DNA from: Pseudomonas putida
GTDB taxonomy: Bacteria; Pseudomonadota; Gammaproteobacteria; Pseudomonadales; Pseudomonadaceae
Length of the DNA: 64,000 nt
NCBI RefSeq assembly: GCF_003228315.1
Contig: NZ_CP029693.1
Span: 2,613,501 to 2,677,500 of the forward strand
Direction of reading: 5' to 3'
Shown here: positions 30,434 through 33,541 of the stretch, one piece after another
Layout of the letters: each line of letters starts with the position of its first letter
Numbering within the stretch: the stretch's first letter is position 1
Translations under genes and position numbers: made by a program
Notes under the pieces: model-generated
What the model was told of the DNA's origin: nothing
Databases searched by the model: none
The model's input: only the letters and a program-made list of their open reading frames with translations

Positions 30434-33265
30434 TTAAACAGTAAAGGCGGCTTGCAGCAGTTGTTCCTGCTGCTCGGCGTGCATCGATGCGTAACCACAT
30501 GCAGGTGCGGCGGAAGCCTCACGGCCCGCGTACTCGAGTACGAGAGACTTGTTGAGGTTCGCGACGCTACGACGCAAGTGGTGTTGGCTGCAGTACCACG
30601 CACCCTGGTTCATCGGCTCTTCCTGGCACCAGACGGCATGCTTGACGTTGGTATAAGGAGCCAGGACTTCTTTCAAGTCGTCCTCAGGGAATGGGTACAG
30701 CTGCTCGATACGCACGATGGCGATATCTTCGCGGCCTTCGGCACGGCGTTTTTCCAGCAGGTCGTAGTAGACCTTGCCGCTACACAGAACAATGCGCTCG
30801 ACCTTTTTCGGGTCCAGGGCATCGATTTCCGGGATAACGGTCTGGAACGAACCTTCGGCCAGATCTTCCAGCGTCGAGATAGCCAGTTTGTGACGCAACA
30901 GCGACTTCGGAGTCAGCACGACCAATGGCTTGCGCAGCGGGCGAATCACCTGACGGCGCAGCAAGTGGTAGATCTGAGCCGGGGTCGTCGGCATGCACAC
31001 CTGAATGTTGTGCTCGGCGCACAGCTGCAGGTAACGCTCAAGGCGAGCCGAGGAGTGCTCAGGGCCCTGACCTTCGTAACCGTGTGGCAGCAGCATGGTC
31101 AGACCACACAGACGGCCCCACTTGTGCTCGCCACTGGTGATGAACTGGTCGATTACGACCTGTGCACCGTTGGCGAAGTCACCGAACTGGGCTTCCCAGA
31201 TCACCAGCGCGTTTGGCGTGGTGGTCGAGTAACCGTATTCGAATGCCAGAACGGCTTCTTCCGACAGGAACGAGTCGTACAGGTCGAAACGCGGCTGACC
31301 GTCGTACAGGTTCTGCAACGGGATGTAGGTGCCCGCGTCCTTCTGGTTGTGCAATACGGCATGACGGTGCGAGAACGTACCGCGACCAATGTCCTGGCCG
31401 GTCATGCGGATCGGGTGACCTTCGAACGCCAGGGTCGCGTACGCCATGGTTTCAGCGTAACCCCAGTTGATCGGCAGGCCGCCGGCTTGCATCTTCTGAC
31501 GGTCTTCGTAGATCTTGGCAACCTGGCGCTGAACCACGAAGCCTTCCGGAACTTCCAGCAGCTTGGCGGACAGTTCCTGCAAGGTCTTGAGGTCGAAGCG
31601 AGTGTCGTGACGCGCAGTCCAGGCGTGGCCCAGATACGGACGCCAGTCCACGAACAGCTCTTTGTTCGGTTCCTTGACCAGGCTCTTCACTACGTGCAGA
31701 CCGTTGTCCAGCGCATTGCGGTACTCGTCGACTTTCGCCTGTACACGCTCTGCGTCCAGCACACCGCTCTGGGTCAGACGATCGGCATACAGCTCACGGG
31801 TGGTGCGCTGTTTGGTGATCTGCTGATACATCAGAGGCTGGGTACCGCTTGGCTCGTCGGCCTCGTTGTGGCCACGACGACGGTAGCAGACCAGGTCGAT
31901 CACCACGTCACGCTTGAACTGCATGCGGTAATCGATGGCCAGCTGAGTCACGAACAATACGGCTTCCGGATCATCACCATTTACATGGAGGATCGGCGCC
32001 TGGATCATTTTCGCGACGTCGGTGGCGTACTCGGTGGAACGCGAGTCCAGCGGGTTGCTGATGGTGAAACCGACCTGGTTGTTGACCACGATGTGCACGG
32101 TACCGCCGGTCTTGAAACCGCGGGTTTGCGACATCTGGAAGGTTTCCATCACCACGCCTTGACCGGCGAATGCCGCGTCACCGTGGATGGAGATCGGCAG
32201 AACCTTCTCACCGGTGGAATCGTTGCGACGATCCTGACGGGCACGGACCGAACCCTCGACCACTGGCGATACGATTTCCAGGTGGGACGGGTTGAAGGCC
32301 ATGGCCAGGTGAACTTCACCGCCGGTGGTCATGACGTTGGACGAGAAGCCCTGGTGATATTTAACGTCACCGGAACCCAGCTCGACCTTCTTCTTGCCTT
32401 CGAACTCGTCGAACAGCTCGCGCGGGTTCTTGCCGAAGGTGTTGACCAGCACGTTCAGACGGCCACGGTGGGCCATGCCGATGACGATTTCCTTGGTGCC
32501 GTAGGAGCCGGAACGCTGGATCAGCTCGTCGAGCATCGGAATCAGGCTTTCGCCGCCTTCCAGACCGAAACGCTTGGTGCCCGGGTATTTGGTACCCAGG
32601 TATTTTTCCAGGCCTTCCGCTGCAGTCACGCGCTCAAGCAGGTGGCCCTTGATGTCCGCCGAATAGGTCGGACGGCCACGTACGCTTTCCAGACGCTGCT
32701 GGAACCACTGGCGCTGCTCGGATTCGGTGATGTGCGTAAATTCAGCGCCGATGGTGCGGCAATATGTCTGCTGCAACGCTTCGTGAATTTCGCGTAGGCT
32801 CGCTTCCTCTTTGCCGATGAACAGGTCGCCGGCACGGAAGGTCGTATCAAGATCGGCATTGGTCAAGCCGTAATGATTGATCGACAGGTCTGCAGGTGCA
32901 GTACGCTGCCACAGCCCCAGCGGGTCAAGCTGGGCTGCCTGGTGGCCACGCATACGGTAGGCCTGGATTAATCGCAGCACTTCAACTTGCTTCTTCTCGT
33001 GCTCAGTGCTCACGCTTCCGGCGGAAACCGGCTGGGCGCGGCGCTGGTTCTTTGCCAGCAACACGAAATGATCGCGAATTGTGGAGTGCGAAACATCGGT
33101 GGCAGAGTTGCCGTCAGCTGGCAACTTCTGAAAGTAGGTGCGCCACTCTTCTGGCACAGCGTTAGGGTCGTGCAGGTAGAGCTCATAAAGCTCTTCCACA
33201 TAGGCAGCGTTACTACCGGAAAGGTAGGCGCTGTTCCACATGCGCTGCATCACGCTTTCTTGCAT
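30434..33265 (-). CDS. sucA: 2-oxoglutarate dehydrogenase E1 component SucA
   Basis: Thiamine-diphosphate-dependent decarboxylation of 2-oxoglutarate. It is 943 residues, the usual length. The N-terminus MQRMWNSAYLSGSNAAYVEELY is the E2-interacting helix region. Active-site and cofactor motifs include GMAHRGRLNVLVN, VSIHGDAAFAGQGV (GDA metal-binding), VDLVCYRRRGHNEADEP and HSSARLERYLQLC. It starts 276 nt past sdhB. That spacer contains competing hairpins and probably the sucA-II RNA motif, so expression may be tuned here relative to sdh. Confidence 0.98.
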   Translation of the reverse strand: MQESVMQRMWNSAYLSGSNAAYVEELYELYLHDPNAVPEEWRTYFQKLPADGNSATDVSHSTIRDHFVLLAKNQRRAQPVSAGSVSTEHEKKQVEVLRLIQAYRMRGHQAAQLDPLGLWQRTAPADLSINHYGLTNADLDTTFRAGDLFIGKEEASLREIHEALQQTYCRTIGAEFTHITESEQRQWFQQRLESVRGRPTYSADIKGHLLERVTAAEGLEKYLGTKYPGTKRFGLEGGESLIPMLDELIQRSGSYGTKEIVIGMAHRGRLNVLVNTFGKNPRELFDEFEGKKKVELGSGDVKYHQGFSSNVMTTGGEVHLAMAFNPSHLEIVSPVVEGSVRARQDRRNDSTGEKVLPISIHGDAAFAGQGVVMETFQMSQTRGFKTGGTVHIVVNNQVGFTISNPLDSRSTEYATDVAKMIQAPILHVNGDDPEAVLFVTQLAIDYRMQFKRDVVIDLVCYRRRGHNEADEPSGTQPLMYQQITKQRTTRELYADRLTQSGVLDAERVQAKVDEYRNALDNGLHVVKSLVKEPNKELFVDWRPYLGHAWTARHDTRFDLKTLQELSAKLLEVPEGFVVQRQVAKIYEDRQKMQAGGLPINWGYAETMAYATLAFEGHPIRMTGQDIGRGTFSHRHAVLHNQKDAGTYIPLQNLYDGQPRFDLYDSFLSEEAVLAFEYGYSTTTPNALVIWEAQFGDFANGAQVVIDQFITSGEHKWGRLCGLTMLLPHGYEGQGPEHSSARLERYLQLCAEHNIQVCMPTTPAQIYHLLRRQVIRPLRKPLVVLTPKSLLRHKLAISTLEDLAEGSFQTVIPEIDALDPKKVERIVLCSGKVYYDLLEKRRAEGREDIAIVRIEQLYPFPEDDLKEVLAPYTNVKHAVWCQEEPMNQGAWYCSQHHLRRSVANLNKSLVLEYAGREASAAPACGYASMHAEQQEQLLQAAFTV

Positions 33266-33541
33266 GCTTGGTCACCCTCGGTTAGGGGAACACCACCGGC
33301 GACGACACCGAGCAAACTTGCAGAAGTCCGAATGCAGCGACCAAAACAAGCCACTTAGGATCACGCTGATAGTCCGGGTACCAGCCCGGATGCCCCTGCT
33401 TGTCTCATTTCTTCAAAATAAGAGCGGTAGCCTTTTGGGCTGCTGCTCAGGTTAAAACTACGGCGCCGGTTGAAGCCTGCGCCGTAGCATCTACGGGTAC
33501 AGCGGTACAACATTTACAACAGCTGGGTTACAGCAGCTGAA
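33266..33541 (-). ncRNA. Structured sdhB-sucA spacer, candidate sucA-II RNA motif with terminator-like hairpin
   Basis: In minus-strand order: CCGTAG (33496-33491) can pair with CTACGG of the next segment (33487-33482), or that segment, extended to CTACGGCGC (33487-33479), can pair with GCGCCGTAG (33466-33458). The latter 9-bp hairpin is followed by TTTT, like a weak intrinsic terminator. A third hairpin, TCCGGG/CCCGGA (33390-33373), lies nearer sucA. The two first pairings exclude each other. A sucA-II RNA motif has been described upstream of sucA in Pseudomonas; assignment is by position. Confidence 0.6.

Follow-up and report, generated by a model that had tools for sequence, protein, structure and literature searches.

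A leader RNA before sucA in Pseudomonadaceae in which one strand can either close a three-way junction or cover the Shine-Dalgarno sequence

What is the role of the spacer between sdhB and sucA in Pseudomonas putida? The original prediction, made from competing hairpins in this spacer, was an attenuator of transcription. We analysed it within the window, by which we mean the whole stretch of 64,000 nucleotides (NZ_CP029693.1, positions 2,613,501 to 2,677,500). As judged from the reading frames, the genes run sdhCDAB, sucAB and a dihydrolipoyl dehydrogenase gene, named after their protein families; from the sdhB stop to the sucA ATG, the spacer measures 276 nt (33266-33541, minus strand). The suggestion that it fits the sucA-II motif was borne out when the covariance model was run: cmscan matches sucA-II RNA (RF01758) at 33487-33269 (-) with 192.9 bits and an E-value of 1.5e-45, far above the gathering score of 70, over model positions 1-217 of 217, and the letters quoted in the prediction all stand at their places on the minus strand. 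The 3' end of the match lies 3 nt ahead of the sucA start, and a position directly upstream of sucA is the same in 131 of 131 extracted loci. Two other RNA families are matched in the window, sucC RNA (RF01759, 27513-27444 (-), 85.6 bits) in the same gene cluster and a Cobalamin riboswitch (RF00174, 6038-5810 (-), 103.5 bits); with sucA-II and sucC RNA, a single TCA gene cluster contains two leader RNAs of unexplained function.

The sucA-II element has been known since 2010, and the Shine-Dalgarno mechanism proposed below is what we infer here from sequence. In the part of the discovery paper that we covered (PMC2864571), the family occupies a single table row, 'y, y, ?, Pseudomonadales', with 'RNA?' as the first column, and no mechanism is stated. 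Beyond this paper, a literature search covering mainly open-access main texts yielded no mention of 'sucA-II' or 'RF01758' and no paper on the sucA leader. A P. aeruginosa study that maps mRNA 3' ends (PMC8297930) does not mention sdh in its main text, nor the suc genes in the passages covered, and the covered portions of three further papers (PMC6321483, PMC4448311, PMC4465626) contain nothing on sucA-II.

Read towards sucA, with all features on the minus strand, the spacer holds CCGTAG (33491..33496), the proposed antiterminator arm, which lies outside the Rfam model, and then P0 (33458..33487), a 9-bp stem with an inner 2 bp, whose arms as read from the sequence are CTACGGCGC (33487-33479) and GCGCCGTAG (33466-33458). 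P0 is at once the first hairpin of the Rfam family and the terminator-like hairpin of the original prediction, and TTTT (33454..33457, also read from the sequence) follows it. The second sucA-II hairpin, GAGC...GCTC (33422..33448; placed by the RF01758 match, fold z -2.03), carries the loop motif GCYCACAAAGC, which recurs with at most two mismatches in 88 of 114 loci. A three-way junction comes next, comprising the P1 5' strand AGGGGCA (33391..33397, from the match and the alignment), the P2 hairpin (33373..33390) and the long P3 hairpin (33293..33372) with outer pairs CTATC/GGTGG, the latter two placed by the match and the covariation count. The strand TGTTCCCCT (33284..33292) is the P1 3' strand and also a predicted anti-Shine-Dalgarno strand, whose partner in the occluded state would be the Shine-Dalgarno segment AGGGTGAC (33271..33278); from its GGTGA there are 6 nt to the sucA start codon (33263..33265, from the reading frame). 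Near-identical letters to this segment, AAGGGTGACC, precede sdhB (34246, -); the ATG at this place hints that sdhB begins one step inside the listed GTG frame.

The overlap at this strand constitutes a second mutually exclusive pair of structures, about 170 bases downstream of the one formed by CCGTAG and P0. The strand GU(U)CCCCU either closes the three-way junction as P1 with AGGGGCA, or covers the sucA Shine-Dalgarno sequence AGGGUGAC. In the consensus near the sucA start, GU-CCCC-UUACCG-AGGG-UGACCAAGC-AUG, CCCCU is the P1 3' strand, with its partner AGGGG about 100 nt upstream, and together with the preceding GU it can fold onto AGGG-U-GAC. Such an overlap is found in all 128 loci that could be anchored (of 131; L095, L099 and L111 were not), P1 having 5/5 pairs in 118 of them, and in 128 of 128 the shared strand and the Shine-Dalgarno segment can form 3-6 contiguous pairs around a loop of 3-8 nt.

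Covariation speaks for the junction. On an alignment of 100 of the 131 loci (A2, which omits near-duplicates and a further seven loci of the window's type), P1 is paired in 96.0% of 698 cells; four of its seven pairs have changed on both sides, as many as in 1 of 500 shuffles, and 13 cells hold double changes against 2.0 in shuffles (0 of 500 had as many), counts that are favoured by the fitting of this alignment to the P1 structure. Over the whole junction, 13 of 25 pairs show double changes, in 47 cells, which none of 500 shuffles reached. As far as the aligned sequences tell, the sucA-II leader contains a conserved, covarying domain of receptor-like appearance. The cover is paired about as often, in 96.3% of 698 cells, and has a single double change (L102, G-C to A-U), a count matched by 23 of 500 shuffles, so that selection on the cover is not shown from this alignment. 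So little covariation would follow from a constraint imposed by the ribosome on one side of the cover, and it fits equally with an absence of selection. In one genus (g2), CUCC/GGAG in P1 was seen by eye together with AAGG in the Shine-Dalgarno segment. A tree of 143 loci requires no fewer than 5 changes in the P1 5' core and no fewer than 7 in the shared strand; in a test for concerted change on 141 of these loci (L139 and L144 have no states; those of L095, L099, L108, L110, L111, L132-L138, L140, L142 and L143 were assigned by hand), five independent pairs were concordant in a mean of 3.3 and never opposed, with a median p of 0.25, and the independent events that can be read from these sequences are too few for significance. 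For four ordinary loci, 68-99 of 200 shuffles do as well as the 5-bp P1 on its own. Two further pairings were considered and rejected: a pseudoknot of the P2-loop CUGGU with ACCAGC, 6/6 complementary in 77 of 128 loci, because the loops vary while ACCAGC is constant, and a pairing of the conserved GUCGC in P3 with GGUGAC, judged by eye, in which the exceptions L038, L054 and L101 are uncompensated.

The most instructive loci are those that have diverged furthest. Of 398 genomes in the window's family, 377 carry a sucA-II match at E<=0.001, 344 of them above the cut-off, and across the class a match occurs in 2 of 369 genomes, both of the window's family. We examined 15 of the 21 family genomes that lack an Rfam match; 13 have sucA, and the two that lack it are both incomplete. 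A model of the junction and Shine-Dalgarno segment, built from 42 loci, recovers 12 of these 13 loci at E<=0.0031 (the E-values being rough), and on 28 loci outside the family gives nothing better than E 0.28. The sole exception among the 13 is L139, in which the element is lost and the sdhB-sucA spacer is 771 nt long; in L144, no good P1 was found. Among the loci missed by Rfam, seven of genus g277 have P1 as CAGGGAUA/UAUCUCUG and the cover as UAUCUCU/AGGGGUG, with one more pair in L138, where the cover reaches 8 bp, and two of genus g284 (L140 and L142) have P1 as GGAGCACUG/CAGUGCUUU and the cover as UGCUUU/AAGGUG. Their P1 scores are reached by few upstream shuffles out of 200, namely 2-5 in g277, 1-3 in L140 and L142, and 8 in L143. 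To judge from their sequences, both genera rewrote the shared strand yet kept both of its partners, and this is the strongest qualitative evidence for the two pairings. Like the family identity, the covariation of P1 and the overlap of the two pairings, the retention of both pairings after rewriting can be read from the sequences themselves.

More distant relatives within the order offer a separate observation. In group f183, the sucA Shine-Dalgarno segment GUAUGGGG can pair with CCCCAUAC, over 8 bp in L162; L175 pairs through CCCAUA over 6 bp, and L151 with one mismatch. Possibly, this pairing represents an independent way to cover the sucA ribosome site.

Which of the two states would the leader adopt by default? 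In free folds of 126 loci (the 128 anchored ones without L108 and L110, whose P1 anchor was wrong), the Gs of the Shine-Dalgarno segment pair with the shared strand at a mean probability of 0.84, exceeding 0.5 in 107 loci, and P1 has a mean pairing probability of 0.02. With P1 enforced, a fraction of 0.52 of the Shine-Dalgarno hexamer is unpaired instead of 0.23, an increase seen in 120 of 126 loci, at a median cost of 4.6 kcal/mol (range 0 to 14); the same means of 0.23 and 0.52 are obtained if the P1 strands are merely reserved and their pairs not enforced. For L132 and L138, folding prefers the cover by 3.6 kcal/mol. L140 and L143, both of g284, have P1 in the minimum-energy fold from the outset, and genera may therefore differ in their default state. 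The last 40 nt of the window's own leader fold with a rival cover, GUCGCC/GGGUGAC; the stability of this stretch (z -0.99) is not out of the ordinary, nor is that of the leader as a whole (z -1.21). A background of Shine-Dalgarno pairing from 47 start sites of the window was discarded, as sucA was misplaced in it relative to its true start.

From these folds and the conservation, we think it probable that the sucA-II leader controls translation through the shared strand, being usually closed and opening when P1 is stabilised. Two states would compete for the one strand at 33292-33284. In the closed state, it would fold onto AGGGTGAC (33278-33271) and cover the Shine-Dalgarno sequence; in the open state, it would close P1 with AGGGGCA (33397-33391) and leave the Shine-Dalgarno sequence free. 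Since the closed state is usually favoured in nearest-neighbour folding, a stabiliser of the junction, for which a metabolite, a protein or a partner RNA are candidates, would switch on the translation of sucA. We infer the alternation of these states in the cell, its direction and the kind of signal behind it.

The upstream half of the spacer could serve a purpose of its own. P0 is more than chance, as the 50-nt stretch that contains it folds at -21.5 kcal/mol (z -2.58), which 5 of 200 shuffles equal or better. All 131 spacers contain a hairpin of 7 or more pairs, and P0 itself is in the expected place in 116 of the 131 loci with 76 different 10-nt arms, so that it is conserved as a structure; this rests on retention of the stem with varying arms rather than on pair-by-pair counting. 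Spacers between operon parts of very different stoichiometry are a usual place for processing and stability elements. It is a real possibility, if short of an even one, that P0 forms such an element jointly with the second hairpin and the AU-rich stretch that follows, maybe beside a translational switch: the stem would shield the 3' end of the sdhCDAB transcript, and a cut within the AU-rich stretch, which separates the second hairpin from the junction (~33421-33405), would leave sucA on an mRNA of its own. The retention of P0 with varying arms in 116 of 131 loci, its T-run not being kept, is consistent with this; however, mRNA processing leaves the conservation of the junction and its overlap with the Shine-Dalgarno segment unexplained.

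A protein or small RNA rather than a metabolite may bind the junction, either stabilising P1 or blocking the Shine-Dalgarno sequence, though this appears somewhat unlikely. In its favour, GACCAGCAGGGGC at 33404-33392 (-) (GACAAGC... in the window) is near-invariant (94% in columns 1-7, 98% in the P1 5' strand), although its first half, ahead of AGGGGC, is mostly unpaired in the model, as a binding site would be. The range of the element within one family likewise speaks for such a binder, being narrower than that of most metabolite riboswitches. However, there is no candidate binder, and the P2-loop pseudoknot with ACCAGC could account for the conservation, but the exceptions in its loop are not followed. 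More tentatively still, and on present evidence doubtful, sucA-II could be a metabolite-sensing translational ON switch, responding for example to 2-oxoglutarate, CoA or succinyl-CoA, that sets the synthesis of 2-oxoglutarate dehydrogenase across the Pseudomonadaceae. If true, this would amount to an orphan riboswitch class, positioned at the branch point of carbon and nitrogen metabolism.

What remains of the attenuator? The original prediction held P0 to be an intrinsic terminator and CCGTAG an antiterminator arm, their choice setting sucAB output relative to sdhCDAB. Both pairings are indeed present in the window and exclude each other. However, the 6-bp CCGTAG/CTACGG hairpin contributes -5.9 kcal/mol where P0 alone reaches -19.0, and forcing the weaker one leaves the local region at -12.0 instead of -22.6 kcal/mol. 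Perfect 6-bp pairing of this kind occurs in 11 of 131 spacers, three of which have unrelated hairpins, and all eight that have it at the window's place are of the window's sequence type. Nor are the bases upstream of the P0 arm more complementary to it than shuffles: p<=0.05 was reached in 1 of 112 loci where 5.6 were expected, in a count that ignores the three bases adjoining the arm (of the 131 loci, 15 were omitted because their strongest hairpin was not clearly P0, and 4 because their upstream part was too short). The weak terminator seen in the window stands as far as its letters go, a 9-bp stem followed by four T, or 5/8 if the last stem base is counted; its T-run, however, is not conserved, there being 6/8 T in 3 of these 112 loci, 5/8 in 42 and no more than three in 58, and a simple terminator scan of the window does not have P0 among its 6 sites. 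The 45 of 112 loci with at least 5/8 T after the stem speak for attenuation, as does the g284 locus L143, in which a hairpin after sdhB is followed by seven T. Overall, we consider attenuation very unlikely, and P0, a conserved hairpin that stands apart downstream of sdhB, more likely serves mRNA processing or marks an mRNA 3' end. A terminator-like T-run is seen in a few relatives, L103 and L104 (6/8 T) and L143; in g284 (L143 and L140), the equivalent of P0 reads GCCUCUUA...UAAGAGGC followed by T-rich bases, and resembles an ordinary terminator more than do its counterparts in the window's relatives. Least credible of all is a short leader peptide ahead of sucA that acts by ribosome stalling. 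In the window, ATGAGACAAGCAGGGGCATCC... does open a short frame after GAAGAA, but the ATG and GTG codons within 16 nt upstream of the anchor fall in differing frames across 128 loci (53 loci have them in frame 2 alone, 35 in frame 1 alone, 7 in frame 0 alone and 6 in two frames, and 27 have none), and no conserved short frame emerges.

Conservation thus backs the alternative between P1 and the Shine-Dalgarno hairpin better than a choice of terminators, which points to translation. If the switch lies at the Shine-Dalgarno sequence and not at a terminator, the question reduces to a few mutants, with translation, not termination, as the readout in which to look for the signal.

How does the leader compare with known systems? 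With the sucA-II family it shares the full-length match, the place directly before sucA and the three-part architecture, and the window shows no deviation from it; in the RF01758 consensus as printed by cmscan, the Shine-Dalgarno segment is unpaired, so that the covering hairpin is an addition made here. The sucA RNA of Burkholderiales is also a sucA leader, and a published passage places it upstream of sucA in Burkholderia; the three families matched in the window do not include it. Intrinsic-terminator attenuators are similar in the GC-rich stem and four T at P0, but differ in that neither the T-run nor the antiterminator is conserved there. Translational riboswitches that occlude the Shine-Dalgarno sequence are a general class, and the likeness of the orphan sucA-II leader to them, here predicted from sequence, consists in an aptamer-like junction whose closing strand doubles as the anti-Shine-Dalgarno strand.
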